This document shows, piece after piece, positions 12,153 to 37,690 of a stretch of DNA of 64,000 nucleotides. The position numbers and the translations under genes were made by a program. The notes under the pieces are model-generated. The model was not told the origin of the DNA and ran no database searches. It saw nothing but the letters and a program-made list of their open reading frames with translations. Within the stretch, counting starts at the first letter, position 1; each line of letters begins with the position of its first letter. The stretch comes from Bordetella sp. H567. Its GTDB lineage: Bacteria; Pseudomonadota; Gammaproteobacteria; Burkholderiales; Burkholderiaceae_B. The stretch lies in assembly GCF_001704295.1 (NCBI RefSeq), contig NZ_CP012334.1:1500084-1564083 (forward strand), written 5' to 3'.

Positions 12153-13732
12153 TGCCGTCCGATGTTCATGGCGCGTATGGCGAACCGGCCGGCCAGCTGG
12201 CGCGGCGCTTCGATCCGATCGAACTGGAAATCCTGTGGCGCAGGCTGATCAGCATCGTCGACGAGGCGTCCACCGCTTTCGTGCGCACCTGCTTTTCGAC
12301 GCTGGTCCGCGACGCCAACGATTTCGCGGTCGTGCTGACCGACGCGCAGGGGCGCTCGCTGGCCCAATCGACCATGAGCATTCCTTCCTTCATCGGCAGC
12401 CTGCCCGCGACCGTGAAGCACTTCCTGCGCAAGTATCCGGCGGATACCCTCAAGCCCGGCGACGTGCTGGTCACCAATGACCCCTGGATGGGAACCGGCC
12501 ATATCCACGACGTCAACACCGTCATGCCGATATTCTTTCGCGGCCGGCTGGTGGCGTTCGCGGCGCTGGTGTCGCACCTGCCGGATATCGGCGGCCGCCT
12601 GCGCAGCAATGCCAACCGCGAAATCTACGAGGAAGGCCTGCAGATCCCGCTGCTGAAGCTGATGGACGGGGGCCAGGTCAACGAGACGCTGGTGGACATG
12701 ATCCGCCAGAACATCCGCGTACCGGAGCAGGGCATGGGGGATATCTGGGCGCAGGTCAGCGCCTGCCGGATGATGGAAGAAAGGCTCGCGCCGCTGCTGG
12801 AATCGGTGGACCTGGATGCGCTGGGCGCCGCCATCCGCCTGCGTTCGGAAGCGGCGATGCGCGCGGCGATCGCCGCGCTGCCGGACGGCACCTACGAATC
12901 CGAGGTGCTGCACGACGGCTTCGAGGAACCCATACGCATCCACTGCAAGCTGACCGTGGCGGGCGACACGATCGCCATCGATTATGCGGGCTCCAGCCCG
13001 CAGCAGCCGCGCGCCGTCAATGTGGTGCCCATCTATGCCTTCGCCTATTCGGCCTATCCGATCAAGGCGCTGCTGTGTCCCGAGGTGCCGAACAACGAAG
13101 GCGGCTTCCTGCCCATTACGACGCAGGCGCCGCTGGGGTCCATCCTGAACCCGACCTATCCGGCGGCCTCCGGCGGACGTGGCGCGATTGGCCATATGCT
13201 GTCACCGGCGATCTTCCTGGCGCTGGCCGAGGTGCTGCCCGAACGCGTATGGGCGTCCGGATCGGCGAATTCGTCCGTGACGATGTTCGGACAGTATCGG
13301 AACCGGCCCTTCAACGTGGTGAACTTCATCAACGGCGGACAGGGCGCGACGGCATCGCGGGATGGCTTGTCGGCCATCTCCTTCCCGGCGAACCTGGGCA
13401 ATACGCCGGTGGAAATGATGGAGACCCTGGCGCCCATCCTGGTGCATCGGCGCGAAATCCGGCGCGGCAGCGGTGGCGCGGGGGCGCATCGCGGTGGCGA
13501 TGGCTTGACCTTCGAGTTCGAGATCACGTCAGAGGCCTCCAGCGTGGCGACGTCGTTCCTGATGACGCGGCTGAAGCATCCGCCGCCGGGCTTGCGGGGC
13601 GGCCAGGCGGGGCAGCGGGGCAGGCTGGTGATCAACGGCACGGAAACGGATCCCACGGAGCAGCGGGTACTCAAGCCCGGGGATCGCGTGCTGATGGAAA
13701 CCGCGGGCGGCGGCGGGTTCGGGCAGCGGTAG
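12149..13732 (+). CDS. hyuB: Hydantoinase/oxoprolinase B subunit
   Basis: This 527-residue partner subunit has the HyuB hallmarks DPWMGTGHIHDVNTVMPIFF, then SHLPDIGG and the Gly-rich region GGRGAIGHM. It acts with HyuA on a hydantoin-like ring in the cytoplasm. Its start codon overlaps the stop of hyuA. The gene is followed by a 69-bp gap and the convergent end of a LysR gene. No separate carbamoylase gene is adjacent, which weakly favours an oxoprolinase-like or N-methylhydantoinase-like reaction. Confidence 0.88.
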   Translation: MMPSDVHGAYGEPAGQLARRFDPIELEILWRRLISIVDEASTAFVRTCFSTLVRDANDFAVVLTDAQGRSLAQSTMSIPSFIGSLPATVKHFLRKYPADTLKPGDVLVTNDPWMGTGHIHDVNTVMPIFFRGRLVAFAALVSHLPDIGGRLRSNANREIYEEGLQIPLLKLMDGGQVNETLVDMIRQNIRVPEQGMGDIWAQVSACRMMEERLAPLLESVDLDALGAAIRLRSEAAMRAAIAALPDGTYESEVLHDGFEEPIRIHCKLTVAGDTIAIDYAGSSPQQPRAVNVVPIYAFAYSAYPIKALLCPEVPNNEGGFLPITTQAPLGSILNPTYPAASGGRGAIGHMLSPAIFLALAEVLPERVWASGSANSSVTMFGQYRNRPFNVVNFINGGQGATASRDGLSAISFPANLGNTPVEMMETLAPILVHRREIRRGSGGAGAHRGGDGLTFEFEITSEASSVATSFLMTRLKHPPPGLRGGQAGQRGRLVINGTETDPTEQRVLKPGDRVLMETAGGGGFGQR

Positions 13733-13801: not shown

Positions 13802-14698
13802 TCAGAACTGCCGCGCCTGCATGCTGGCTGCCGGTGTTCCGCGGTCGGTCAACCCCATCTTGGCGATCAGCATGTCGAACACGTACCGCGTCAGCGGGTT
13901 GATGGAGTCGCCTCGCATCCACAGGAAGTAGTTGGCGTCCGGCAGCGGTGGCAGGCCGTCTTTTTCGCCCAGCACCCGCATGTCCGGTCCCAGGAACTCG
14001 ATGCTGCGCGCGGTGACGCCCAGGCCGGCGCGCACCGCGGCCCGGATACCCACCAGGTTGGGCGCGACGTAGTTGGTCTGCCACGGTACGCGCGCCTGTT
14101 CCAGCGCGTTCAGGGCCAGCCGGCGGAACAGGCTGGGTTCATCGGCCAGCACCAGCGGCACCGGCGCGCCGGCATCGTGCACATAGGCCGCGGAAGCGAT
14201 CCAGGCGGTGGGCGAAGTGCGCAGGATCACGCCTTCGTATGCTGGATCGAAGCGCGTCGATATGCACAGATCCAGTTCCCCCGCGCGCAGGGCGTTCATC
14301 AGGAACGGGCTGCGATCCACGCGGATCTCCAGCCTGACGCGCGGAGACCAGCGCGTGATGTGGGTCAGCACGGTCGGCAGGATGGTATCGGCCACGTCGT
14401 GCGGCGAGCCCAGGCGCAGTTCGCCTTCCAGCTGGCCGTCCTGCATCGCGCGCATGGCCTCGTCGTTGATGGCCAGCATATGGCGCGCATAATCGACCAG
14501 CTTGCGCCCGTGCGGCGACAGCAGCTTGTTGCGCCCCTGCTTTTCGAATAGCGGCAGCCCCACCAGGCTTTCCAGGCGCTGCATCTGCTGCGTGATCGCG
14601 GATTGGGTCTTGTGCAGGCGCTCGGCCGCGCCCGAGAATGTCTGGGCCTGGTCGATGGCCGCGAGCGTACGCAGCAGGTCGAGATCCAGATTGCGCAT
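13802..14698 (-). CDS. LysR-family transcriptional regulator
   Basis: This 298-residue LysR protein starts MRNLDLDLLRTLAAIDQAQT, with HTH AAERLHKTQSAITQQMQRLE, and resembles the LrhA branch in its opening. It is divergent from the thiol dioxygenase-like gene at 14814 across a 115-bp A/T-rich gap with LysR-box-like dyads, so it is the likely regulator of the sulfur-compound gene run that follows. The C-terminal effector domain is complete. Confidence 0.85.
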   Translation of the reverse strand: MRNLDLDLLRTLAAIDQAQTFSGAAERLHKTQSAITQQMQRLESLVGLPLFEKQGRNKLLSPHGRKLVDYARHMLAINDEAMRAMQDGQLEGELRLGSPHDVADTILPTVLTHITRWSPRVRLEIRVDRSPFLMNALRAGELDLCISTRFDPAYEGVILRTSPTAWIASAAYVHDAGAPVPLVLADEPSLFRRLALNALEQARVPWQTNYVAPNLVGIRAAVRAGLGVTARSIEFLGPDMRVLGEKDGLPPLPDANYFLWMRGDSINPLTRYVFDMLIAKMGLTDRGTPAASMQARQF

Positions 14699-14712
14699 AC
14701 GGCCTCCAACAT

Positions 14713-14750
14713 ATTACGCATGCTAATGAGTTATTAAGGCAAATTAATTT
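14713..14750 (+). promoter_or_regulatory. Likely LysR operator region
   Basis: The gap between the LysR gene and the cupin gene is much richer in A/T than its surroundings. It contains ATTA-N7-TAAT (14713-14727), a 15-bp T-N11-A type dyad as LysR proteins prefer, and 14 bases later the perfect palindrome AAATTAATTT (14741-14750). These could be recognition and activation sites; assignment is from pattern only. Confidence 0.5.
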
Positions 14751-14813
14751 GTCACGCCGCATTCATGGCCGTAGAGTATCCCCGAAATCGCCTCAATAAA
14801 GGAGTATTTCCGC

Positions 14814-15401
14814 ATGGGCAGCCCACATCCGCACCAAAAAGACATCACGCTGGCGATCGAAAACATAAAGGATACTGTACGAACGCAGGGGTTGAACTGC
14901 GGAAGCCTGGACGACGTGCTGCGCACCGTCATCGGCCTGGCCAGCCACCGCGACTGGTGGGCCGCCGACCGCTACGCACCGCCGGAGGGCGACGAACGCC
15001 AGGCGCGCTACCTGATCAGCGAGGAACCCGACCACGGCTACGCGCTGTACCTGAACGTGATGCGGCCCGGCAAGAAGATCGTCCCGCACAACCATACGAC
15101 CTGGGCGTGCATCGCCGCCGTCGAGGGAGTCGAATACAACTACGTCTACGACCGCCTGGATGACGGCAAGGAGCCCGGCGTAGGCCGCCTGGCCAAGAAG
15201 GACACCGTCGTGGTCGAACCCGGTACCGGCATCGCCCTGATGCCCGACGACATACACGCGGTGGAAATCCGCGGCGACGGCGTGATCCGGCACCTGCACA
15301 TGTACGGGCGCGCGCTGGAAACCCTGACGGAGCGGCTGTCCTTCGACCTGGACGCCGGCACCTGCAAGGTCATGCCGATCGGCGTGCAGACGCGCCGCTG
15401 A
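14814..15401 (+). CDS. Cysteine dioxygenase-like thiol dioxygenase (cupin)
   Basis: This 195-residue cupin resembles cysteine/3-mercaptopropionate dioxygenases, which oxidise a thiol to a sulfinate with a three-His iron centre. The metal motif is seen as [15 protein letters not shown] (two His) with the third His in PDDIHAVE. A Cys lies five residues after the second His, as in the Cys that is crosslinked in mammalian enzymes, and a Tyr occurs near HLHMYG. AAAGGAG precedes the ATG. It is the first gene of the run with a MetC-like lyase and a rhodanese, which supports a sulfur role. Substrate is not determined. Confidence 0.75.
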
Positions 15402-15415
15402 CGGGAACCCGCGCC

Positions 15416-16585
15416 ATGGAAGAACGATACAAGCCGGGCACGCGGCTGCTGCGTGCCGGGCGGCCACATCGCGGCTGGGTGAACACGCCGGTGACCCGCG
15501 CCAGCACCTATATATTCGACAGCGTGCGGCAGTGGCGCGATACGCGCGCCCGCCGCGACCAGGAAAGGCTGCTGTCGTACGGCGCGCGCGGGACGGACAG
15601 CACCTATGCGCTGGAAGACGCGCTGGTCGAGCTGGAAGGCGGCTATCGCGCCAAGATGTACCCCACCGGGCAGGCCGCCATCGCGGTGGTGCTGCTGGCC
15701 TATCTGAAGGCTGGCGACCATGTCCTGATCACCGATGCGGTGTACGAACCGGTGCGGCGCTTCTGCGCCGAGCAGCTGTCGCGCTGGGGCATCGAGTTCA
15801 GCTACTACCGGCCGGACGGCAGCGATCTGCCGGATCGCATCCGTCCCAACACCCGCATGATCTACGCGGAGTGCCCGGGTTCGCTGGTCTACGAAATGAT
15901 GGACCTGCCCGCGGTGGCGGAACTGGCGCATCGCCATGACTGCTGGCTGGCGGTGGACAACACCTGGGGATCCGGGCTGCTATACCGGCCCCTGACGCTG
16001 GGCGCCGATATTTCGGTTACCGCCGCGACCAAATACCTGGGCGGCCACGCCGACGTCATGATGGGCACGGTCGTCACGACGGAGCGCGCCTGGGCGCCGC
16101 TGGAACGCGCGACCGTGGACATGGGCCAGACCGTGGGCGCCGACGATGCCTATCTGGTGCTGCGTGGCATGCGATCCATGGCGGCGCGGCTGGCGATGCA
16201 TGGCCGCCACGCGCTGCGCGTGGCCGAATGGCTGCAGGGACGCGCGGAAGTGGCCCGTGTCCTGTGCCCGGCCCTGCCCGACGATCCCGGCCATGCGCTG
16301 TGGAAGCGCGATTGCAGCGGCACCAATGGCCTGCTGTCCATCGAATTCGCGCGCGGCATCACGGACGCCGACGTCGAACGCATGGTCGACGCATTCGGCC
16401 TGTTCGGCCTGGGCGCCTCCTGGGGCGGCTTCGAAAGCCTGTGCGTGCCGGTCAACATGGCGCGCGCCCGCACCGTCTCGGATTGGTCGGGACGCGGGGC
16501 GATCCTGCGCCTGCATATCGGGCTGGAGGATCCGGAAGATCTGCTGGCCGATCTGGACCAGGCCATGGCCGCGCTGAAACGCTGA
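15416..16585 (+). CDS. Cystathionine beta-lyase-like PLP enzyme (Cys/Met metabolism)
   Basis: This 389-residue fold-type I PLP enzyme of the Cys/Met metabolism family probably carries out beta-elimination on a C-S bond and releases a thiol, pyruvate and ammonia. The PLP lysine is K206 in TAATKYLGGHADVMMG, and VDNTWGSGLLYRPL carries the conserved Asp that pairs with the PLP nitrogen. YPTGQAAIAVVLLAYLKAGD is the substrate-phosphate side. It lies 14 bp after the dioxygenase gene. It most resembles MetC of proteobacteria, but the context suits an S-substituted cysteine lyase equally well. Confidence 0.82.
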   Translation: MEERYKPGTRLLRAGRPHRGWVNTPVTRASTYIFDSVRQWRDTRARRDQERLLSYGARGTDSTYALEDALVELEGGYRAKMYPTGQAAIAVVLLAYLKAGDHVLITDAVYEPVRRFCAEQLSRWGIEFSYYRPDGSDLPDRIRPNTRMIYAECPGSLVYEMMDLPAVAELAHRHDCWLAVDNTWGSGLLYRPLTLGADISVTAATKYLGGHADVMMGTVVTTERAWAPLERATVDMGQTVGADDAYLVLRGMRSMAARLAMHGRHALRVAEWLQGRAEVARVLCPALPDDPGHALWKRDCSGTNGLLSIEFARGITDADVERMVDAFGLFGLGASWGGFESLCVPVNMARARTVSDWSGRGAILRLHIGLEDPEDLLADLDQAMAALKR

Positions 16586-16687
16586 GCCGCCGGCGCCGCG
16601 CGCGCCGCGATACGACTACCCATCCCGGCATGCCGCGTCCGCGCGGCGTGAAGGGCACGCTTTTTCCTCGATTTCTTGCAGAGTCAC

Positions 16688-18295
16688 ATGACGCAGCATT
16701 ACACCGACACTTCGTCCATCCCGCGCATCGACGCGCCGACGCTCAAGCGCTGGCTGCATGATGGCGCCGAGATCGGCCTGCTGGATGTGCGCGAGCATGG
16801 CCAGTACGGCGAGGGGCATCCCTTCCTGGCGGTTTCGCTGCCGTACAGCCGCCTGGAAGCCGAGGCGCCGCGCCTGCTGCCGCGCAAGGGCGCGCGGCTG
16901 GTGGCCTTCGATGCCGGCGACGGCGTGGCGCCGCGCGCGGCGGCGGCCCTGCGCGCGCTGGGCTACACGGACGTCCACGTCCTGCAGGGCGGGGCGCCGG
17001 GCTGGCGCGACGCCGGCTATACCCTGTTCGCGGGCGTCAACCTGCCCAGCAAGACCTTCGGCGAACTGGCCGAGCACATCTGCCACACGCCGCGCATCAG
17101 CGCGGCGGACCTGGAAAGCCGCCAGCGCGGCGGCGACAAGCTGGTCGTCCTGGACGGCCGGCCCTATGCCGAATACCGCAAGATGAATATCCCGGGCGGC
17201 ATCTGCTGCCCCAACGGTGAACTGGCCCTGCGCATCCAGGACCTGGTGCCCGATCCGGATACCACCATCGTCGTCAACTGTGCGGGCCGCACGCGCAGCA
17301 TCATCGGCGCGCAGACGCTGATCAACCTGGGCGTGCCGAATCCGGTGCTGGCGCTGGAGAACGGCACGCAGGGCTGGTACCTGGCCGATCTGCCGCTGGA
17401 ACATGGTTCGCGGCGCAAATACGCCGAGGCGGTCTCCGCCGGCGCGCTGCCCGCGCTGCGCGAGCGCGCACAAGCCGTGGCGCGGCAGCATGGCGTCGTC
17501 ACCGTGGACGCGGCACGGGTGCGCGAGTGGCTGGCGGATGCCAGCCGCACCACCTATCTGTGCGACGTGCGCACCGAAGAAGAATACGCGGCCGGCACGC
17601 TGGCCGGCGCGCAGCACACCCCCGGGGGGCAGCTGATCCAGGCCACCGATCAGTACATCGGCGTGCGCAATGCGCGGATCGTGGTCGCGGATGGCGAGGG
17701 CGTGCGCGCGCCCGTGGTGGCGAGCTGGCTGCGGCAGATGGGCTGGGACGTGTACGTGTTGCGCGAGGGCGTGGCGGCGGACGTCGGTGCGCCGGCAGCC
17801 GCCGTCCCGCTGGCGACACCGCCGGCGATCGCGACCGCGGACCTGGCCGCCGCGCGGCGCGATGGCGCCGTGCTGGTGGACGTGCGTCCCGGCATGGCGT
17901 ACCGGAAGGGGCATATCGCCGGCGCGCGCTGGTCGATACGGCCGCGACTCCCTGACTTGGGCATCGCGGCGGATGCGCGGGTGATCCTGTTGGCCGCGGA
18001 CGCCGCCGTGGCCGCGCTGGCCGCGCGCGAGCTGGCCGGCATGGGCATCGACCAGGTGCGGTTGAACATGGACGGCCCCGACGCCTGGCGCGCGGCCGGA
18101 TTGCCCATGGAGGCCAGCGAGAACGAGCCGGCCGACAAGGACTGCATCGACTACCTGTTCTTCGTGCACGACCGCCACGACGGCAACAAGGCCGCCGCGC
18201 GGCAGTACCTGGCCTGGGAAACCAATCTGATCCATCAGATCGACGAACAGGAGCGGTCGATCTTCCGTTTTCCGGTCCGTACGGACCAGGATTGA
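16688..18295 (+). CDS. Rhodanese-like protein with four tandem domains
   Basis: This 535-residue protein has four rhodanese-like units opening with LLDVREHGQY, VVLDGRPYAEYRK, LCDVRTEEEYAAG and LVDVRPGMAYRKGH. Only the second unit keeps an active-site loop with a cysteine (C198 in NCAGRTRS); the loops of units 1, 3 and 4 lack it, so one catalytic site handles the persulfide and the others look structural. A conserved-looking tail (DYLFFVHDRHDGNKAAARQY) follows. ATG 16688 is preferred to TTG 16676. It probably moves sulfane sulfur released by the upstream lyase and dioxygenase. Confidence 0.82.
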   Translation: MTQHYTDTSSIPRIDAPTLKRWLHDGAEIGLLDVREHGQYGEGHPFLAVSLPYSRLEAEAPRLLPRKGARLVAFDAGDGVAPRAAAALRALGYTDVHVLQGGAPGWRDAGYTLFAGVNLPSKTFGELAEHICHTPRISAADLESRQRGGDKLVVLDGRPYAEYRKMNIPGGICCPNGELALRIQDLVPDPDTTIVVNCAGRTRSIIGAQTLINLGVPNPVLALENGTQGWYLADLPLEHGSRRKYAEAVSAGALPALRERAQAVARQHGVVTVDAARVREWLADASRTTYLCDVRTEEEYAAGTLAGAQHTPGGQLIQATDQYIGVRNARIVVADGEGVRAPVVASWLRQMGWDVYVLREGVAADVGAPAAAVPLATPPAIATADLAAARRDGAVLVDVRPGMAYRKGHIAGARWSIRPRLPDLGIAADARVILLAADAAVAALAARELAGMGIDQVRLNMDGPDAWRAAGLPMEASENEPADKDCIDYLFFVHDRHDGNKAAARQYLAWETNLIHQIDEQERSIFRFPVRTDQD

Positions 18296-18346
18296 ACGCA
18301 CCGCCGGTCTACCGGATCCGGCGCCAACCACCAAGGGGAAACAACG

Positions 18347-19165
18347 ATGAGAACCACTCTGTACCTGTTCGCCGCGGCCGCCACGCTGGGTGCCGCCGTG
18401 GCCCACGCCGACGCGCTGGACGACGTGAGGGCGCGCGGCAAGCTGATCTGCGGCACGCAAAGCGCCAGCGTCCCCTATGCCTACCAGGACACGGCCACGC
18501 GCAGCTTCGTGGGCTACGACGTCGACATGTGTGCCGCCCTGGCCAAGGGCCTGGGCGTGGCGCTGGAGCACAAGCCGCTGTCGACCGAGGCGCGCATTCC
18601 GGAACTGAAGATGAATCGCGTCGATGTGGTCGCCGGTTCGATGGCTTACCTGCCCGAGCGCGCGCAACAGGTGGACTACAGCCTGCAGTACCTGCAGGGC
18701 AGCATCAAGGTGCTGGTGCGCAAGGATTCCGGCATCGCGTCGCTGAAGGGCCTGGCGGGCCACAAGGTATGCGCCTCCAAGGGCTCCAGCTCGGCCGCCA
18801 TCGCCGCGCGCGTGCTGCCCGAATCGCAGGTGCTGTCCTTCCAGGACGTGGCGTCCTGCTACCTGGGCCTGCAGAACGACAAGGTGGATGGTTTCACCGC
18901 CGGTGAACTGATCCTGAAGCGATTCGAGCTGGATTCGCAGAAGTCCGGCAGGCCGACGGTCCTGCTGCCCGAGCCGACCTATGTCGAGCATATCGGCGTG
19001 GTCGTCAACAAGGGCAATCCCAAGCTGCTGGCCGCGATCAACAAGGTGATCCAGGACATGGACAAGGACGGCACGCTGAACGCCATGTACGACAGGTGGC
19101 TGGGCGCCAATTCGATCTACAAGCTGACCCGCACCTTCAAGGTCGAGCCGGTCGACGCCGAATAG
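18347..19165 (+). CDS. Amino-acid ABC transporter, periplasmic binding protein
   Basis: This 272-residue solute-binding protein of family 3 has a signal peptide (MRTTLYLFAAAATLGAAVAHA) and the family features GYDVDMCAALAKGLG and VEHIGVVVNKGNPKL. It captures a polar amino acid in the periplasm for the permeases and ATPase that follow directly. AAGGGGAAAC precedes the ATG. Two Cys in the second lobe (KVCASKG and VASCYLG) may form a disulfide. Co-location with Cys/Met-type enzymes suggests a sulfur amino acid or its derivative as ligand. Confidence 0.88.
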   Translation: MRTTLYLFAAAATLGAAVAHADALDDVRARGKLICGTQSASVPYAYQDTATRSFVGYDVDMCAALAKGLGVALEHKPLSTEARIPELKMNRVDVVAGSMAYLPERAQQVDYSLQYLQGSIKVLVRKDSGIASLKGLAGHKVCASKGSSSAAIAARVLPESQVLSFQDVASCYLGLQNDKVDGFTAGELILKRFELDSQKSGRPTVLLPEPTYVEHIGVVVNKGNPKLLAAINKVIQDMDKDGTLNAMYDRWLGANSIYKLTRTFKVEPVDAE

Positions 19166-19181
19166 GGCGGTCGCGAGCGCC

Positions 19182-19877
19182 ATGCATTTCGATTTTGCTT
19201 TCCTCACGAGCGGGAACTACGGCGCCACGCTGCTGGCGGGCGCCGTCACCACCGTGCGCCTGTTCGCGGGCGCATGGGTGCTGGGTCTCGCGATCGCGCT
19301 GCTGCTGGTCGTGCTGCGCGCGATCCCCTGGCGCCCGCTGCAGCTGGTGGTGGCCGCCTTCGTCGAATACCACCGCAACGTGCCGACCGTGGTGCAGATC
19401 ATGGTGTGGTATTTCGGCATGCCGCAGATCCTGCCGGAGGGCCTGCGCCTGTGGATCAACCGCGGGGATACCGAGTTCCTGTTCGGCCTGATCGCGCTGA
19501 GCCTGAATGTCAGCGGCTTCATGTCCGAGGACATCCGCGCCGGGTTGCGCGCCATCCCCGGGACGCAGGTGGAGGCGGCGCGTTCCGTCGGCCTGAGCGC
19601 CTGGGGCGCGCTGCGCCACGTCATGCTGCCGCAGGCGGTACGCATCGCCGTGCCGCCGCTGGTCAACCGCTCGCTGATCCTGTTCAAGGACACCAGCCTG
19701 GCGATGGTGATCGGCGTGGGCGAGCTGACCTACCAGGTCAAGGCGATCGAGAACCAGACTTTCCGGTCGTTCGAAGTCTTCGCCGTGTCGACCGCCCTGT
19801 ACCTGGCCGCATCGCTTGCGCTGATGGGCCTGGGGGCGTGGTTCGGCCGCCGCTATCCGCCCGCTTTCAGGAGATGA
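19182..19877 (+). CDS. Amino-acid ABC transporter permease
   Basis: This 231-residue inner-membrane permease of the HisM/GlnP type has about five membrane segments and the EAA loop EAARSVGLSAWGALRHVMLP, the contact site for the ATPase. It begins 16 bp after the binding-protein gene and pairs with the next permease in a heterodimer. Confidence 0.88.
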   Translation: MHFDFAFLTSGNYGATLLAGAVTTVRLFAGAWVLGLAIALLLVVLRAIPWRPLQLVVAAFVEYHRNVPTVVQIMVWYFGMPQILPEGLRLWINRGDTEFLFGLIALSLNVSGFMSEDIRAGLRAIPGTQVEAARSVGLSAWGALRHVMLPQAVRIAVPPLVNRSLILFKDTSLAMVIGVGELTYQVKAIENQTFRSFEVFAVSTALYLAASLALMGLGAWFGRRYPPAFRR

Positions 19878-19880
19878 GCC

Positions 19881-20573
19881 ATGTGGCAGATTCTGCATGA
19901 CTACGGCCTGATGTTCCTGGTCGGCGCCTGGCCGCAGGGGCCGCTTGGCGGCTTTGCCGCGACGCTGATCCTGGCGGGCGCCGGCCTGGCGATTTCCTTC
20001 CCGCTGGCGATCTGCCTGGGCCTGGCGCGCACGAGCGGCGTGCGGGCGCTGCGCTGGCCGGCCACGGCGTGGGTCTACGCCTTCCGCGGCGTGCCGCTGA
20101 TCATGATCATCTTCTGGGCGTACTTCGTCCTGCCGGTGCTGACCGGCGCCACCGTGCCGGCCTTTGCCACCGCGCTGTGCGCCATCGTGCTGTACGAATC
20201 CGCCTTCCTGGGCGAAATCGTGCGCGCCGGCCTGGAAGGGCTGCCGCCGGGCCAGACCGAGGCGGCGCGCGCCGTCGGCCTGAACTACGCGCAGTCCATG
20301 CGGCACGTGATCCTGCCGCAGGCGCTGGCCAACATGATTCCCTCGCTGGTCAACCAGTTCGTGTCGACCATCAAGGCCACGTCCATCGTGTATGTGATCG
20401 GCGTCCAGGAAGTGACCTTCGCCGCCCAGCAGGTCAACAGCATGGAGATGGCCCATGCGCTGCAGACCTTCCTGGTGCTGGCCGCCCTGTATTTCGTGCC
20501 GTGCTTCGCCCTGTCGCGCCTGGCGGGCCGCCTGGAGCGCGGACTGGCGCGCAAACGGCTGCGCGCCGCCTGA
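19881..20573 (+). CDS. Amino-acid ABC transporter permease
   Basis: This second 230-residue permease of the polar amino-acid importer has the EAA loop EAARAVGLNYAQSMRHVILP and helices typical of the family. It begins three bases after the previous stop, so the two are translated together. Confidence 0.88.
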   Translation: MWQILHDYGLMFLVGAWPQGPLGGFAATLILAGAGLAISFPLAICLGLARTSGVRALRWPATAWVYAFRGVPLIMIIFWAYFVLPVLTGATVPAFATALCAIVLYESAFLGEIVRAGLEGLPPGQTEAARAVGLNYAQSMRHVILPQALANMIPSLVNQFVSTIKATSIVYVIGVQEVTFAAQQVNSMEMAHALQTFLVLAALYFVPCFALSRLAGRLERGLARKRLRAA

Positions 20574-20603
20574 GCGCGCACGGCCATAGCCTTGGAGATT
20601 GCC

Positions 20604-21404
20604 GTGATAGAACTCGACAAAGTACAGAAATGGTATGGAAGCTACCACGCGCTGGACAACGTCTGCGGGCGCGTGGAGGCGGGGCAGGTGGTGGTGGTGT
20701 GCGGTCCGTCCGGGTCCGGCAAGTCGACGATGATACGCACCATCAACCGGCTGGAACCGATACAGGGCGGCGTCATCCGCGTGGCCGGGCAGGACATTCA
20801 TGCGAAGGGCCGTGACATCAATGCGCTGCGGGCCGGCGTCGGCTTCGTCTTCCAGCAGTTCAACCTGTTTCCGCACCTGTCGGTGGCCGAGAACATCATG
20901 CTCTCGCCCGTCCGCGTGCACGGGATGTCGCGGCCACGCGCCGCCGCGCTGGCCCGCGAGCTGCTGGCCAAGGTGGGCCTGGAGCATAAGTTCGACGCGA
21001 TGCCGGCCAGCTTGTCCGGCGGCCAGCAGCAGCGCGTCGCCATTGCCCGCGCGCTGGCGCAGCATCCGCCGCTGATCCTGTTCGACGAGCCGACCAGTGC
21101 GCTCGATCCCGAGATGGTGGGCGAGGTGCTGGCGGTCATGAAGCAGCTGGCCGCCGAGGGCATGACCATGGTGGTGGTCACGCATGAAATGGGATTCGCG
21201 CGCGAGGTCGCCGATCGCATCTGGTTCATGGACGAAGGGCGCATCCTGGAGGACTCCACGCCGGACCGCTTCTTTGCCAACCCGGATCATCCGCGCGCCC
21301 GCAAGTTCCTGTCCGACGTGCTGCGGCCGGGCGCGCCGCTGGCCGTGGCCGCCGGCGCTCCCGCGCCGTCGCCGCGCTCCGGCCTGTCGGCATCGGCGGC
21401 CTAG
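20604..21404 (+). CDS. Amino-acid ABC transporter ATPase (GlnQ-like)
   Basis: This 266-residue ATPase energises the importer: Walker [10 protein letters not shown]-loop [11 protein letters not shown], signature LSGGQQQR and Walker [12 protein letters not shown] are all intact. GTG 20604 is chosen because TTGGAG lies about 7 bp upstream and it gives the usual start [12 protein letters not shown]; a TTG at 20592 would add four residues. It closes the four-gene transporter set. The C-terminus carries a short Ala/Pro/Ser tail. Confidence 0.9.
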
Positions 21405-21504
21405 CGCGACCGGCCCCGGACGCGGCTGCGCGCCATACGTCAACCTACCGTTTCATCAACACGGCCGCTCAGCTAGTACATCGCGGCCGACAAGGGGAAG
21501 TACC

Positions 21505-22470
21505 ATGCCATTCAAACGAATCGCCGCCTGCGGCGCCGCCGCGCTCTGCGCGCTGTCCATCTCCACCGCCCAGGCGGCCTATCCGGAATCGGGCACGCCG
21601 GTCCGCATCGTGGTCGGCTTTCCGCCCGGCGGCGGCGCCGACGTGTTGGCGCGCGCCGCCGCGCTGGGCGTGTCCAAGGCCCTGAACGCCAACGTCATGG
21701 TCGAGAACCGGCCCGGCGCCAGCGGCATCATCGCCACCGACTACGTGTCGCGCGCCAAGCCCGACGGCTACACGCTCTACATCGCCACGCCGGGTTCGCT
21801 GACCATCCTGCCCAATCTGCAGAAGGTGCCCTACAACCCGGCCAAGGACTTCACGCCGATCTCGCTGCTGGTCACCATGCCCAACGTCCTGGTCACCAGC
21901 CCGAATTCCGGCATCAACAGCATCAAGGACCTGATCGAGCGCGCGAAGTCGAAGGACGTAACCTATGCATCCGGCGGCAACGGCACCATCGGCCAGATGG
22001 CGGCGGAGCAGTTCAACATGATGGCGGGCGTGCATATGCGGCACATCCCGTACAAGGGCACCACGCCCGCCCTGACCGACGTGGCCGGCGGGCTGGTGGA
22101 AGTGACGTTTTCCGATCCCTCGGTCAAATCGCTGGTGCAATCCGGCAAGCTGAAGGCCCTGGGGGTGACGACGGTGAAGGGCTCCGACGAGTTCCCCGGC
22201 GCGCCACCCATCGGGCAGGCCGGGGTGCCGGGCTACGAGCTGACCAACTGGTACGGCGTCATCGCGCCGGCCGGGGTGCCGCAGGACATCGTGGAAACGC
22301 TCAACCGCGCCTTCGCGCAGGCCATGGCCAATCCCGATATCGTCAAGACGCTTGCCGCTTCCGGCATGACGGCCACCTCCGACACGCCCGCCCAGTTTGG
22401 CGAGCTGATGACCAAGGAGCGCGCCAAATGGGCGGATCTGGTCAAGAAGGCCAACATACGGCTGGATTGA
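21505..22470 (+). CDS. Tripartite tricarboxylate (Bug/TctC) periplasmic binding protein
   Basis: This 321-residue Bug receptor has a signal peptide ending AQAAYPESG and the hallmark RIVVGFPPGGGADVLARA and HIPYKGTTPALTD. AAGGGGA precedes ATG 21505. It lies between the ABC importer and the molybdoenzyme on the same strand, 100 bp after the ATPase gene, and may deliver a further acidic intermediate of the same pathway. The ligand is unknown. Confidence 0.86.
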   Translation: MPFKRIAACGAAALCALSISTAQAAYPESGTPVRIVVGFPPGGGADVLARAAALGVSKALNANVMVENRPGASGIIATDYVSRAKPDGYTLYIATPGSLTILPNLQKVPYNPAKDFTPISLLVTMPNVLVTSPNSGINSIKDLIERAKSKDVTYASGGNGTIGQMAAEQFNMMAGVHMRHIPYKGTTPALTDVAGGLVEVTFSDPSVKSLVQSGKLKALGVTTVKGSDEFPGAPPIGQAGVPGYELTNWYGVIAPAGVPQDIVETLNRAFAQAMANPDIVKTLAASGMTATSDTPAQFGELMTKERAKWADLVKKANIRLD

Positions 22471-22513
22471 TGAAGGGAATCGGCGGCGGCATGCGCCGCC
22501 GCGGGAGAGCGAT

Positions 22514-24790
22514 ATGACATCCATTGCGTCGAACGAGCGCCGCTATCCGCAGCTGGCGCACTGGGGCGCGTTCACGGCCGTGGTGCGCGACGGGCGGCTG
22601 GTCGCCTGCGAACCCTTCCAGCAGGATCCCGCCCCATCGCGGCTGCTGGAAGCCATCGCGCCCATGGTGTATTCACCGCATCGCATCGCGCGGCCGGCGG
22701 TGCGCAAATCGTGGCTGGCCTCGCGCGGCGCGGCGGGCGGGGCGCTGCGCGGACGCGATGAGTTCGTGGAAGTCGACTGGGACGCGGCGCTGGACCTGGT
22801 GGCGGGGGAGATCGCCCGCACGCGCGCCGAGCACGGCCCGGCCGGGCTGTTCTGCGGCTCCTATGGCTGGTCGTCCGCCGGGCGGCTGCACCACGCCCGT
22901 TCGCTGATCCGCCGTTTCTACTTCGCGGGCGGCGGCGGCGTCGACCAGCTGGGAAACTACAGCTGGGGCACGGCGCAATTCCTGCTGCCGCACGTGATCG
23001 GCACCTATACGCCCTTGACGGGGCGGGTGACGTCCTGGCCCAGCATCATCGCGCATACCCAGGTATTCCTGGCCTTCGGCGGGCTGGCGCTGAAGAACGG
23101 CCAGGTATCGTCGGGCGGCGCGGCCGAACACACGCAGGAATACTGGCTGCGGCAGCTGGCGGCCAAGGGAGCGCGGGTGATCAACGTAAGCCCCACGCGC
23201 GACGACTGCCCCGATTTCCTGAACGCCGAATGGATACCGATACGGCCGAACACCGACGTCGCGCTGATGCTGGCGCTGGCGTACGAATTGCGCCGCGCGG
23301 ACGCGCACGACCGCGCTTTCCTGGCCACTCACTGCGTGGGCTACGAAGCGCTGGAAGCCTACTTCACCGGCGCGGCAGACGGCGTGGCCAAGGATGCCGA
23401 TTGGGCCGCCGGCATCACGGGCATCCCGGCGCCGCGCATACGCGAGCTGGCACGCGCCCTGCACGGCACGCGCAGCTATCTGACCTGTTCGTTCGCCGTG
23501 CAGCGCGCGCAGCATGGCGAGCAGCCCTACTGGATGGTGATCGCGCTGGCCGCGATGCTGGGGCAGATCGGGCTGCCGGGCGGCGGCTTCGGTTTCGGCC
23601 ACGGGTCCATGAACGGCGTGGGCAATCCCCGCATCGCCACGCCGGGTCCGGAAATGCCCGTGGGGCGCAACCCGGCGGACCTGGCGATTCCGGTCGCCCG
23701 CCTGACCGAGATGCTGGAAAAACCTGGGCAGCCGTACCCGTTCCAGGGGGAAACCCGCCATTATCCCGACATCCATTTCATCCACTGGGCGGGCGGCAAT
23801 CCTTTCCACCACCATCAGCAATTGAACCGCCTGCTGGCGGCGTGGCGCAGCAAGCCCCGCACGATCGTGGTCAATGAGATCTGGTGGACGCCGGTGGCGC
23901 GGCATGCCGATATCGTGCTGCCCATCACCACATCGCTGGAGCGCAATGATATCGGCGGCTCGTCGCGCGATCGCTATGCGCTGGCGATGCATCGTGCTAT
24001 CGAGCCGCTGGGGCAGGCCCGCAACGACCTGGACGTGTTCGCGGCGCTGGCACAGCGCCTGGGCTACGGCGAACGCTATACCGAAGGCCGCGACGAGATG
24101 GACTGGATCCGGCACATCTATGCGCAGTTCGCGCAAACGCACGAACGGGCCGGCGTGCCGCTGCCGCGGTTCGAGGACTTCTGGGCGCAGGGCCACGTCA
24201 AGCTGCCGCCGCCCAGTCGGGACTTCATCCTCTTCGAGGACTTCCGCAAGGACCCGGCCGCGCATCCCTTGCGCACGCCCAGCGGGCGCATCGAACTCTA
24301 TAGCGAAACACTGGCCGCCTATGGCTGCGCCGACTGCGGACCGCATCCGCGCTGGATACCGCCCGGCGAGTGGCTGGGCGCGGACAGCGCACGGGACTAT
24401 CCGCTGCACCTGCTGACGGTGCAACCGGCCGACCGCCTGCACAGCCAGCTGGACGCGGCGCCGCTGGCGCAGTCCAACAAGGTGGGTGGCCACGAAGCCG
24501 TGCGCATCCACCCCGACGACGCGGGCGCACGGGGCCTGCGCGACGGCGATGTCGTGCGTTTGTACAACGCGCGCGGTGCCTGCCTGGCCGGCGCGCAGCT
24601 GGACGCGGGGCTGCTGCCCGGCACGGTTGTCATGTCGACCGGGGCCTGGTTCGCGCCCGGTGCGCAAGACGATGCCCCCGAAACCGCGGGCACCGCGAAC
24701 GTACTGACGCTGGATGTGGGTACTTCCACGCTGACGCAGGGACCGAATGCCATGAGCTGCCTGGTACAGGCCGAGCGCTGGCAAGGATAG
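22514..24790 (+). CDS. Biotin sulfoxide reductase-like molybdopterin oxidoreductase
   Basis: This 758-residue enzyme belongs to the DMSO reductase family, and its closest recognisable relatives are BisC/TorA-type enzymes that reduce S- or N-oxides. The region GSYGWSSAGRLHHARS resembles BisC around its Mo-ligating Ser. It has no N-terminal Fe-S Cys motif and no Tat leader, which fits a cytoplasmic BisC-like enzyme. The bis-MGD binding C-terminal domain (about residues 620-758) is complete. It sits with sulfur-amino-acid genes, so a sulfoxide substrate is attractive, but N-oxides are possible. Confidence 0.82.
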   Translation: MTSIASNERRYPQLAHWGAFTAVVRDGRLVACEPFQQDPAPSRLLEAIAPMVYSPHRIARPAVRKSWLASRGAAGGALRGRDEFVEVDWDAALDLVAGEIARTRAEHGPAGLFCGSYGWSSAGRLHHARSLIRRFYFAGGGGVDQLGNYSWGTAQFLLPHVIGTYTPLTGRVTSWPSIIAHTQVFLAFGGLALKNGQVSSGGAAEHTQEYWLRQLAAKGARVINVSPTRDDCPDFLNAEWIPIRPNTDVALMLALAYELRRADAHDRAFLATHCVGYEALEAYFTGAADGVAKDADWAAGITGIPAPRIRELARALHGTRSYLTCSFAVQRAQHGEQPYWMVIALAAMLGQIGLPGGGFGFGHGSMNGVGNPRIATPGPEMPVGRNPADLAIPVARLTEMLEKPGQPYPFQGETRHYPDIHFIHWAGGNPFHHHQQLNRLLAAWRSKPRTIVVNEIWWTPVARHADIVLPITTSLERNDIGGSSRDRYALAMHRAIEPLGQARNDLDVFAALAQRLGYGERYTEGRDEMDWIRHIYAQFAQTHERAGVPLPRFEDFWAQGHVKLPPPSRDFILFEDFRKDPAAHPLRTPSGRIELYSETLAAYGCADCGPHPRWIPPGEWLGADSARDYPLHLLTVQPADRLHSQLDAAPLAQSNKVGGHEAVRIHPDDAGARGLRDGDVVRLYNARGACLAGAQLDAGLLPGTVVMSTGAWFAPGAQDDAPETAGTANVLTLDVGTSTLTQGPNAMSCLVQAERWQG

Positions 24791-24820
24791 CCAATCGAAA
24801 TTCAAGCAAGGAGCATGACG

Positions 24821-25831
24821 ATGGGCATTATTGGAGAATTCCTGGCGGGCCGCGATGGCGCCGCCCGTCGCCACGGCGAGATCGCGGTCGGGTCGATGTC
24901 GTCCGGCATGGCGGTCGCATTGCCGTACGTCGCGGTGCGCGGCGCCCGGCCAGGCAAGACGCTATGGCTGCACGGGCAGGTACACGGCGACGAGATCAAC
25001 GGGATGGTAGCCGCGTTGCGGTTCGCCGCGCGGCTGGATTCGCAGTCCATGCAGGGCAACGTGGTGGTCACGCCGACCGGCAATCCGCATGCGTTGGATA
25101 GCCGGCGCAAGCGCAATCCCTATGACGATCTGGACCTGGATCAATGCTACCCGGGCAACCCGCGCGGGCTGATCTCCGAACGGCTGGCACATGCGTTGAT
25201 GAACGAGATTCGCGGCACGGCGGATTGGTTGATCAATCTGCATACGATGAATGCGCTGTTCGATTCGAAGCCGTATGCGGTGTACAAGCTGCATCCGGAC
25301 AGCGGTGTTTCGGAAGCCGGTTTGCTGCGTGCCATCGCCTTGTTCGAGCCGCATGTTGCCTGCCGCATGGATGTGGGTGGCAAGGGCGAGCTGCCGGGCA
25401 ATATCGCCGGCGCGCTGGACTACCAATGCCTGGCCGCGGGCATTCCGGCCTTCATGCTGGAACTGGGCGGCGGTAGCCGCTATGAAGCCGCCAATGTCGC
25501 GCTGGCGGAACGGGGGTTCGAGCGTTTGGCCATTCAGATGGGGATCCTGGAAGGGGCGGTCGATGCGGCGCGGAAGGTGCGGCGGGTGACGCGCCGCGGC
25601 TGGGTCACCTTCGATCGCGGGGGGCTGTTCGTGCCGCAGGTGCAGGCGGGGGATACGGTGTCGGTCGGGGCGGCGTTGGGTACCTCCATGGATATCCATG
25701 GCAACGCGCTGGAGGAAATCTGCGTGCCTGGGGATGGGATCGTCATCGGATTGCGTCGTGATCCTGTCGTGCATACGGGGGAGCGGGCGGCTTTCGTGGG
25801 GTATGAGTGGGATAGTTTCGATCTCGCTTGA
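24821..25831 (+). CDS. Aspartoacylase / succinylglutamate desuccinylase-like amidohydrolase
   Basis: This 336-residue zinc hydrolase of the AstE/AspA (M14-like) family removes an acyl group from an amino acid or amine. The metal ligands are seen in LHGQVHGDEIN (His and Glu) and INLHT (third His), and the likely catalytic Glu is in FMLELGGG. The C-terminal beta domain (RRGWVTFDRGG to the end) matches the family. ATG 24821 is chosen over 24815 because AAGGAG is then 7 bp upstream instead of two. It is the last gene of the plus-strand run and follows the molybdoenzyme by about 30 bp. Confidence 0.8.
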   Translation: MGIIGEFLAGRDGAARRHGEIAVGSMSSGMAVALPYVAVRGARPGKTLWLHGQVHGDEINGMVAALRFAARLDSQSMQGNVVVTPTGNPHALDSRRKRNPYDDLDLDQCYPGNPRGLISERLAHALMNEIRGTADWLINLHTMNALFDSKPYAVYKLHPDSGVSEAGLLRAIALFEPHVACRMDVGGKGELPGNIAGALDYQCLAAGIPAFMLELGGGSRYEAANVALAERGFERLAIQMGILEGAVDAARKVRRVTRRGWVTFDRGGLFVPQVQAGDTVSVGAALGTSMDIHGNALEEICVPGDGIVIGLRRDPVVHTGERAAFVGYEWDSFDLA

Positions 25832-26344: not shown

Positions 26345-27726
26345 GGGACTGTCAGGATTTTTGTGTTTGAGGCATTTGAACGTCGTCGTGTTTCTGACTC
26401 TCCAGGTTCATGCTACTTCAGTGATATGGGTCGGTGAAGCGTTCTGCATAGATGATGGCAAACTGGTTCATGGCCAACCTCCAGTCGTGCGTGGCGCAGC
26501 CCCAGGTGCCCGTGATATTGCGCAGGACTAACCACAATAACTTGGTTGCGGCGTCGTCACTGGGGAAGTGTCCACGGGTCTTTACCGATCGGCGCAATTG
26601 CGCATTCAAGCTCTCGATGGCATTGGTGGTGTAGATGATCTTTCGGATCGCCGGGGGAAACGTAAAGAACGGGATCACGCGGTCCCAGGCGCGATGCCAG
26701 GTCTGGGCGATGGTCGGATATCTTTGGCCCCAACTGCCTTGCTCGAACACTGCCAGCGCCGCTTGCGCAGCCTCCACGGTCGGTGCGGTGTAGATCGGCC
26801 TGAGAGCCGCAGCCACTATCCGGCGCTCCTTCCAGCTCGCATATTCGACGCTACTGCGCATCAGATGCACGATGCACGTTTGCAGTGTGGTGCTTGGAAA
26901 TACCGCGTTCAGCGCCTGCTCCATTCCCTTTAAGCCGTCGGTGACCGCGATCAGGATATCCAGCGTGCCCCGAGTCTTGAGTTCGTTGAACACCTTCATC
27001 CAGAACTTCGATCCCTCGGTCTGCTCGATCCACAGGCCCAGGATGTCACGAGTGCCGTCCGGCAGGATCGCCAGCGCCAGGTACACCGCCTTGTTGCGTA
27101 CCACGCCATCTTCGCGGATCTTCACCCGCAACGCGTCGAAGAACACCACCGGATACATGGTCTCCAAAGGGCGGTTCTGCCAGGCGATCACCTCTTCCAT
27201 AACCGCGTCGGTCACCGAACTGATGAACTCGGGCGAGACTTCCGTGCCGTACTGCTCAAGCAGAAAACCTTGGATCTCGCGCACCGTCATCCCCCGGGCG
27301 TACATGGCGATGATCTTGTCATCAAATCCCGTAAATCGACGCTTGTGCTTGGGAATCAGGATCGGCGCAAAACTGCCTTGCCGGTCCCGGGGAATGTCCA
27401 CGCGTAGCGGCCCATCGTCGGTTATCACCGTCTTGCCACTGGTGCCGTTGCGATGGTTAGTGCTGCCTTCGGGCGGGTCCGTGCCGGCGCCATAGCCCAG
27501 GTGCTGGCCCATTTCCGCGCCCAGCGCCCGTTCGATCAGGGCCTTCTTGAACGCCATCGAAAGGTCCTGCACCGACTCCGGCGTCATCGGACCTTTGACG
27601 AACTCATCCATCAGATTTGCAGGAATCGATGGCAATTCCCTCGGAGGTGCCTTTTGCTTGGTAGCCATAATGTGCTCCTCTGGAGCAGCTATGTTAGGCC
27701 TCAAACACAAAATTTATGACACTCCC
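26345..27726 (-). mobile_element. IS256-family insertion sequence, complete
   Basis: This is a 1382-bp element bounded by inverted terminal repeats beginning GGGACTGTCA (left) and GGGAGTGTCA (right, read inward); the first 29 bases of the two ends agree at 25 positions. It carries one intact transposase gene and is flanked by an 8-bp direct repeat (26337-26344 and 27727-27734). Intact ends, gene and duplication point to a rather recent and possibly still active insertion. Confidence 0.93.
26418..27668 (-). CDS. IS256-family (mutator type) transposase
   Basis: This is a 416-residue DDE transposase. The three acidic residues are visible in VVFFDALRVKI, AVTDGLKGM and TTNAIESLN, the usual layout of the family. 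ATG 27668 (MATKQKAPPREL) has AGAGGAGC upstream; a longer frame to 27710 lacks such a site. The gene fills the element between the inverted repeats. Confidence 0.95.
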   Translation of the reverse strand: MATKQKAPPRELPSIPANLMDEFVKGPMTPESVQDLSMAFKKALIERALGAEMGQHLGYGAGTDPPEGSTNHRNGTSGKTVITDDGPLRVDIPRDRQGSFAPILIPKHKRRFTGFDDKIIAMYARGMTVREIQGFLLEQYGTEVSPEFISSVTDAVMEEVIAWQNRPLETMYPVVFFDALRVKIREDGVVRNKAVYLALAILPDGTRDILGLWIEQTEGSKFWMKVFNELKTRGTLDILIAVTDGLKGMEQALNAVFPSTTLQTCIVHLMRSSVEYASWKERRIVAAALRPIYTAPTVEAAQAALAVFEQGSWGQRYPTIAQTWHRAWDRVIPFFTFPPAIRKIIYTTNAIESLNAQLRRSVKTRGHFPSDDAATKLLWLVLRNITGTWGCATHDWRLAMNQFAIIYAERFTDPYH

Positions 27727-36921: not shown

Positions 36922-37690
36922 TCCAGCCGGCGATTTCCCGTTGCCGCTGGGCCGGCATGCGGTCGATGATGGCCGTGACGCTGATCGCCAGCGACGGGAC
37001 GCCCTCGTCATCGAGCAGCGCGCATCCGACGCCCAAGGCGCCGCGCACGGCATGGTTGCCCACCACGGAATAGCCGCGCGACCGGGTGTTTTCGATCAGG
37101 CGCAGCATTTCGTGCGAGGTCATCCCGCCGTATTCGTCCAGGTGCGCCGCGTTGCGCTCGACGATGCCGCGGGCCTCGTCGTCAGGCAGCGCCGCCAGCA
37201 GCGCCATGCCGCCGGAGCCGACGCCCAGCGGCTGCCGCTTGCCGGCATAGGTGGCAAGGATCTGCACCGGATAGCCGCCGATCTCGCGGTGCAGGCTGAC
37301 CGACTCGTCGCCCTCGCGCACGACCAGGAACACCGCATCGCCGGTGCGTTCGGCCAGCCGTCGCAGCGCCGGCAACGTCTGCCGCAGGCGGGGATCCGCC
37401 TCCGCCACGCCGGCCTCCTGCGCCAATTGGGCGCGATACCGCTTCGTGCCGGCGATGGGGTGGGCAAGTCCGGCTTCCATCAATGCCGCCATCAGGCGAT
37501 AAATCGTAGGACGCTGGATACCGGTGTAGCGCGCCAGGTCGGTAACGCCCAGGCCGTTCGCGCCATGGTCGCGCAGTGCCGCCAATACCTGCAGCCCGCG
37601 GCGTAGCGTGCGAGGTCCGACCGCGTGGGACGTGGCATCTTCCGTGATGCCGGGCGGCGCATGGCCGCTGAGGGCTGGCGAGGTATGCAT
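36890..37690 (-). CDS. IclR-family transcriptional regulator
   Basis: This 266-residue regulator has an N-terminal winged HTH (TLRRGLQVLAALRDHGANGL and YTGIQRPTIYRLMAALMEAG) and the C-terminal IclR effector domain (GYPVQILATYAGKRQPLGVG). ATG 37690 gives a normal family length; a TTG at 37771 would add 27 residues. It is divergent from the Bug receptor gene at 37859, and paired operator repeats lie between, so it probably controls that gene. Confidence 0.87.
   Translation of the reverse strand: MHTSPALSGHAPPGITEDATSHAVGPRTLRRGLQVLAALRDHGANGLGVTDLARYTGIQRPTIYRLMAALMEAGLAHPIAGTKRYRAQLAQEAGVAEADPRLRQTLPALRRLAERTGDAVFLVVREGDESVSLHREIGGYPVQILATYAGKRQPLGVGSGGMALLAALPDDEARGIVERNAAHLDEYGGMTSHEMLRLIENTRSRGYSVVGNHAVRGALGVGCALLDDEGVPSLAISVTAIIDRMPAQRQREIAGWIKAELARLQG

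Follow-up and report, generated by a model that had tools for sequence, protein, structure and literature searches.

An extended mercaptosuccinate dioxygenase gene cluster in Bordetella sp. H567 and its possible role in cysteine S-conjugate catabolism

The gene cluster and its products

The genome of Bordetella sp. H567 (5.53 Mb, a single contig) carries a set of eleven genes within the 64,000-nucleotide stretch of DNA analyzed here, hereafter the window. All 11 genes named in a preliminary description of the region were confirmed by ORF listing and family scans; one, for a LysR-type regulator, lies on the minus strand, and the other ten lie on the plus strand with intergenic gaps of 3 to 102 bases (Table 1). 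Eight of the 11 genes follow, in order, a published cluster from Advenella mimigardefordensis DPN7 (MIM_c37410-37480), which comprises LysR, mercaptosuccinate dioxygenase (Msdo), cystathionine beta-lyase (CBL), rhodanese, and a four-gene amino-acid ABC importer (PMC5373536), so the earlier statement that no described pathway has such a gene set fails for these eight. The LysR-msdo-CBL-rhodanese context is present in the window, and the nearest named loci, judged by the cupin, belong to Achromobacter and Bordetella. The published cluster differs in that Bug, BisC, and AspA are unnamed in the figure legend of that report and the CBL is given no role there. The gene arrangement of the window exceeds chance: its core is the known mercaptosuccinate cluster, and the extended gene set is a real, recurrent variant.

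Table 1. Genes and other features in and around the cluster (positions are those of the window)
Feature	Position	Strand	Evidence or remark
Hydantoinase/oxoprolinase A and B genes	10017-13732	+	
LysR regulator, MIM_c37410 kind	13802-14698	-	PF00126/PF03466; LysR at 40/50 usable family Msdo loci
Candidate LysR box ATTACGCATGCTAAT	14713-14727	.	Aligns with related stretches; putative function
Candidate promoter TTGTCA-17-TAGAGT	14749-14777	+	Consensus scan: 2 sites found vs 1.5 expected
Mercaptosuccinate dioxygenase-like cupin	14814-15401	+	8vni 2e-73; His92, His94, His148 in 117/117
CBL-like Cys/Met PLP enzyme, cluster-specific kind	15416-16585	+	TIGR01324; Ala57; tree
Terminator-like site	16645-16661	+	CBL-rhodanese gap
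Four-domain rhodanese, single Cys-bearing catalytic-type loop (Cys197)	16688-18295	+	PF00581, four stretches; loop conservation
Polar amino-acid ABC importer binding protein, solute-binding family 3	18347-19165	+	PF00497
ABC importer permease 1	19182-19877	+	PF00528
ABC importer permease 2	19881-20573	+	PF00528
ABC importer ATPase, GlnQ/TcyN-like	20592-21404	+	PF00005; NCBIfam matches under cut-offs
Bug/TctC periplasmic receptor	21505-22470	+	PF03401 4.6e-65
BisC-like S-oxide reductase, DMSO reductase type	22514-24790	+	PF00384/PF01568/PF18364
AstE/AspA-type zinc hydrolase (predicted deacylase)	24815-25831	+	PF24827 80.3 bits
Mutator-family transposase	26418-27665	-	PF00872

The label of thiol-dioxygenase-like cupin given to the second gene stands as far as dioxygenase kinship is concerned, the solved mercaptosuccinate dioxygenase 8vni being its sole strong solved relative (over residues 15-195), although no Pfam model was reached at an E-value of 0.001 (the best was Cupin_2, at 0.089). 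Identity as a cysteine dioxygenase was rejected, since solved chains named cysteine dioxygenase or 3-mercaptopropionate dioxygenase matched the cupin at 4e-7 or weaker. The protein is 59-68% identical to Variovorax cupins, and its three conserved histidines presumably form a three-His iron site. Gln63, Cys99, and Arg159 are likewise invariant among the 117 Msdo-like copies; in 15 cupin paralogues, Gln63 and Cys99 occur in none and Arg159 in four, and it may be guessed that the three residues hold the second carboxylate of the substrate. (For residue counts of the cupin, rhodanese, BisC, and AspA, copies with internal stops and exact duplicates were removed.) Mercaptosuccinate activity is predicted for the window cupin from kinship.

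The rhodanese is indeed composed of four domains, as first described, but it has a single catalytic-type Cys loop. Specifically, Cys197 in the domain 2 loop CAGRTRS is Cys in 114/114 aligned copies, while the window has no Cys in the corresponding loops of domains 1, 3, and 4, where Cys reaches at most 30% of copies in any column. With Cys thus restricted to one of four domains, and with the published Msdo product being sulfinosuccinate, which decomposes to succinate and sulfite (PMC5373536), the persulfide end point envisaged in the preliminary description is not supported.

For the ABC importer, the best NCBIfam match of permease 1 was a cystine-importer model, and the same kind of model ranked second for both the binding protein and the ATPase, all below cut-off. 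These matches, together with the presence of the rhodanese at 46 of 50 Msdo loci, are what might be expected if cystine were imported and split by the CBL, acting as a cystine lyase, to thiocysteine, with the rhodanese and cupin handling the resulting persulfide and cysteine. Such a route is nonetheless improbable: the top match of the binding protein is a lysine/arginine/ornithine model, likewise below cut-off, the cupin is Msdo-like rather than cysteine dioxygenase-like, and the scheme leaves BisC and AspA with no role.

The BisC-like protein has DMSO-reductase-type Pfam domains and aligns to 1eu1; against TIGR00509 it scores 935.1 bits, under the curated cut-off of 1017.55. Its Ser150, Tyr117, and Trp119 are kept in 12/12 copies, and we take Ser150 to be the Ser ligand which, with Tyr117 and Trp119, typifies the DMSO reductase type. 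A sulfite-oxidizing molybdoenzyme has been suggested for V. paradoxus, and this identity is not favored for the BisC-like protein, which is of the DMSO-reductase type with Ser150. The last gene product belongs with AstE/AspA proteins, its score against PF24827 far exceeding the cut-off of 25, and His57, Glu60, His143, and Glu216, which presumably serve as zinc/catalytic residues, are found in 11/11 copies. Its match to the DoeB model TIGR02994 (89.1 bits versus a curated cut-off of 402.7) places it outside DoeB.

The gap between the LysR and cupin genes could be aligned for 23 stretches, including that of the window, out of 102 divergent LysR-cupin pairs in the fetched loci. The left arm of the candidate LysR box, ATTAG, recurs in 14 of the 22 other stretches, and the TTGT of the candidate promoter is present in all 23. 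The terminator-like site in the CBL-rhodanese gap is one of 11 such sites in the region, where 4.9 were expected, and the same scan found no plus-strand terminator-like site in the other plus-strand gaps. A single transcript for the plus-strand run is plausible on these signals.

The cluster is flanked by genes of other kinds. Downstream of the AspA gene lies a transposase gene, presumably IS256-type, which possibly marks the edge of an island. Directly upstream of the LysR gene are the hydantoinase/oxoprolinase genes, whose membership in the Msdo cluster was rejected because no match to them was found near Msdo in three loci from the same genus (L034, L035, and L037); hydantoinase genes are present, however, in a paralogous cluster (L191).

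Retention of the extended gene set in related genomes

Among 151 genomes of the family, matches at E-values up to 1e-30, paralogues included, were found in 73 genomes for the rhodanese and in 59 for the cupin. Seventy-three family loci were fetched and 71 analyzed, of which 21 were excluded (17 without a cupin of at least 53% identity and four with short flanks), leaving 50 Msdo loci. A second set of 80 named loci was reduced to 76 by removal of four short ones. The two sets overlap in part (L044/L129 and L053/L127 are apparently the same contigs), and their counts are kept separate. At the 50 family loci, rhodanese occurred at 46, LysR at 40, CBL at 35, importer at 19, and BisC and AspA at 7 each; at the 76 named loci, the counts were rhodanese 73, LysR 70, CBL 66, importer 9, AspA 6, and BisC 3. 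Importer loci were spread over 9 of 21 genera, and BisC and AspA loci over 5 of 21 each.

Linkage of the added genes to the Msdo cluster is borne out by comparison of the family and named neighborhoods. The preliminary description, which took the genes to belong together, would have been refuted had the set been dispersed in relatives; it proved to be retained in them. Window-like importers at the family loci accompany the CBL in 19/19 cases and are found at none of the 15 loci that lack it (Fisher p 0.00024, ancestry ignored). The same holds for BisC and AspA (7/7 each with CBL, none at the 15 CBL-less loci), at p 0.087 each with small numbers and ancestry ignored, and the two genes occur together at six of the eight family loci with either (p 3e-6, ancestry ignored). 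At the named loci, importer (9/9), AspA (6/6), and BisC (3/3) also occurred with the CBL, and the association was not significant (p 0.6, 1, and 1, respectively, ancestry ignored); this test is uninformative because most named loci have a CBL. More distant importer genes, below the identity thresholds, do occur at CBL-less Msdo loci, namely L053/L127 (ATPase 52%, binding protein 29%) and Ottowia L116 (ATPase 51%, permease 35%), so the restriction of importers to CBL-bearing loci applies to window-like importers. As BisC and AspA are each found at only 7 of 50 loci and the CBL is missing from 15 of 50, this front end of the cluster is optional.

Genome-wide searches showed AspA-like genes (E-values up to 1e-60) in 10 of the 151 family genomes, and eight of them, including that of the window, lie within 10 kb of Msdo. 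Of the remaining two, one (G027) adjoins BisC on a 9.3-kb contig and the other (G092) belongs to a diverged second cluster in the order LysR-CBL-AspA-Bug-cupin-rhodanese, at approximately L185:3700-10300. BisC-like genes (E-values up to 1e-100) were more widespread, with 74 matches in 57 of the 151 genomes and eight within 10 kb of Msdo; all five with at least 72% identity, including that of the window, are within that distance.

This distribution bears on two other ways of reading the cluster. It could be that the published cluster serves free mercaptosuccinate only, and that the CBL, importer, BisC, and AspA are loose scavengers of sulfur or nitrogen with no common substrate. Absence of the CBL from 15 of the 50 family loci is in keeping with this, as is the finding that growth of Advenella requires msdo and lysR and not the importer (PMC5373536). 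We consider it unlikely, if by no means negligible, given that the CBL is kept at 35/50 family and 66/76 named loci, that window-like importers, BisC, and AspA are found solely with it, that AspA is nearly confined to Msdo loci (8/10 genomes), and that the cluster CBL is unlike the housekeeping enzyme (see below). The second concerns BisC loci away from Msdo, six of 24 examined having a CBL-family gene nearby (L234, L236, L239, L241, L246, and L247; four of the six in genus g43). The 24 were L180, L188, L189, L190, and 20 others. These pairs, along with the deacylase, S-oxide reductase, and beta-lyase classes encoded in the window, would suit a route for alliin- or mercapturate-type compounds, that is, plant or xenobiotic S-alkyl cysteines in sulfoxide or N-acetyl form. 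Yet no Msdo-like cupin accompanies those BisC-CBL pairs in the stretch fetched, and the window cupin groups with an enzyme of published mercaptosuccinate specificity, for which the expected thiol is mercaptosuccinate; the alliin- or mercapturate-like substrate first proposed for this locus therefore has little probability. The pairing of BisC with a CBL-family gene at these sites also fits the cysteine-conjugate route proposed below. Counting against that route, the CBLs beside BisC carry Arg rather than Ala at the marker position described below in all four of the six that were readable.

Several other neighbors of Msdo deserve mention. An arylmalonate decarboxylase/Asp-Glu racemase family gene lies between Bug and AspA at one Msdo locus (L045:9680-10438) and was seen at three loci, two of which (L044 and L129) are apparently one contig; it could encode a pathway isomerase or racemase. 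In Diaphorobacter, an M20-family peptidase/deacylase gene (L119:16574-17602) sits beside AspA-like genes at an Msdo locus, a second pointer to N-acyl substrates. Achromobacter and Sheuella loci share further genes next to Msdo, for GidA, GidB, ParA, ParB, an acetyltransferase, and an asparaginase, which were judged to be chance neighbors. An Msdo locus is also on record, through PMC5373536, for Variovorax paradoxus B4; it resembles the window in having msdo with CBL and rhodanese. Most of the Variovorax loci fetched here read LysR-cupin-rhodanese-Bug-CBL; they differ from the window in gene order and in having Bug in place of the ABC importer, and no BisC or AspA match was found in the loci fetched.

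Clusters of related composition are also built around paralogous cupins. Eight of 12 such loci (L191-L194, L198, and L200-L202, among L191-L202) combine a cupin of 37-46% identity with a CBL-family enzyme of 43-50% identity and amino-acid importer genes; the other four (L195-L197 and L199) do not. This recurrence suggests a modular scheme of importer, beta-lyase, and thiol dioxygenase, in which each module might handle a different conjugate.

The cluster beta-lyase-like enzyme

The window CBL scores 414.1 bits against TIGR01324 (cystathionine beta-lyase), above the cut-off of 365.9, and is of the same family as the E. coli enzyme 1cl1 (5.5e-97), the two agreeing in the PLP lysine stretch and over most of the alignment. 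A second CBL in the same genome is 46% identical to it, and this second copy, used as a query against 61 family genomes, found matches in 52, of which 49 were at least 57% identical; these matches were taken as housekeeping copies. In an alignment from which copies under 340 residues and duplicates were excluded, position 57 is Ala in 90/90 cluster copies, whose collection at 51% or greater identity to the window CBL biases columns toward uniformity, whereas it is Arg in 30/30 housekeeping copies. Arg44, Arg58, and Arg352 were rejected as cluster-only residues, since each is also Arg in the E. coli enzyme, and Ala57 was kept as the sole marker.

Ala57 aligns to Arg58 of the E. coli enzyme, which, according to PMC5025676, binds the PLP phosphate and also, with reference there to Lodha 2010, the distal carboxylate of cystathionine. 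The cluster CBL lacks this distal-carboxylate contact and, with Arg58 replaced throughout the cluster copies, it is here called CBL-like rather than a cystathionine enzyme. The change from Arg58 to Ala indicates that the distal pocket has changed, though by itself it does not point to a particular new specificity. A quick tree sets the cluster copies apart by a branch with SH-aLRT support of 90 and the housekeeping copies by one with support of 100. Judged from alignment and tree, the cluster CBL is distinct from the housekeeping CBL.

A proposed route from cysteine S-conjugates to mercaptosuccinate

Previous work on A. mimigardefordensis provides the experimental basis for any reading of the cluster. 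Deletion of msdo or lysR abolished growth on mercaptosuccinate, and the Msdo enzyme has a Km of 0.2 mM (PMC5373536). Protein spots were increased on mercaptosuccinate for the binding protein (22.7-/5.6-fold), the ATPase (7.0-/6.8-fold), and Msdo (10.9-fold), and, as the table is read here, the importer also rose on dithiodipropionate, 3.1- and 8.6-fold, an induction thus not confined to mercaptosuccinate (PMC5373536). Deletion of the importer left growth on mercaptosuccinate like that of the wild type; the deletion is given as 37450-37480 in the strain table and as 37430-37480 in the legend of Fig 5, and the CBL and rhodanese genes were possibly included (PMC5373536). An importer that is induced on mercaptosuccinate yet dispensable may be read as a sign that mercaptosuccinate is an intermediate and inducer, with the importer and CBL serving a precursor.

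Taken as a whole, the locus would be a LysR-controlled catabolic island in which the Msdo core has been extended by preceding steps, so that the cell itself produces the thiol from a cysteine S-conjugate that it imports. The ABC importer, perhaps with the Bug receptor, would capture the conjugate; where it is masked, an N-acyl group would be stripped off by the AspA-like hydrolase, and a sulfoxide would be reduced by the BisC-like enzyme. Beta-elimination by the cluster CBL would then yield mercaptosuccinate, pyruvate, and ammonia, and Msdo would convert mercaptosuccinate and O2, via sulfinosuccinate, to succinate and sulfite; the rhodanese might deal with the sulfur or sulfite. The preliminary description had anticipated uptake, removal of the masks, cleavage of the C-S bond, and oxidation of the thiol, and each is consistent with the anatomy of the genes. 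The Msdo step and the requirement for LysR and Msdo are backed by experiment, in another species (PMC5373536). For the whole sequence of import, unmasking, CBL cleavage to mercaptosuccinate, and Msdo oxidation, the case is evenly poised, and the reading could equally well prove right or wrong.

If Msdo keeps its published substrate, the conjugate would be S-(2-succino)cysteine (2SC). This compound is the product of fumarate and cysteine. It is tempting to suggest that the cluster encodes a third, cysteine-destroying route for 2SC and its N-acyl or S-oxide forms, in which the dedicated CBL clade would release mercaptosuccinate for Msdo; this more specific proposal is tentative. In the known routes (YxeK; 2SL), 2SC is first acetylated, after which the succino moiety is removed and cysteine is regained (PMC9706529, PMC12757645). 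They resemble the proposal in dealing with the same damaged amino acid and in involving N-acyl chemistry, and they differ in that cleavage in the proposed pathway would fall on the other C-S bond, at the cost of the cysteine. No report of a mercaptosuccinate route for 2SC was found among the matches listed in a search of the open-licence literature.

Mercaptosuccinate breakdown has been studied with the compound as a polythioester precursor (PMC5373536), a context that leaves unexplained why many Burkholderiales keep a dedicated mercaptosuccinate cluster. Were the proposed pathway correct, Msdo would gain a natural source of its substrate, and the cluster would be one of several parallel modules of importer, beta-lyase, and thiol dioxygenase. 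Its chemistry would be distinct from both published 2SC routes, and if the cluster CBL does make mercaptosuccinate from 2SC, the cluster would dispose of a general fumarate-damage product.
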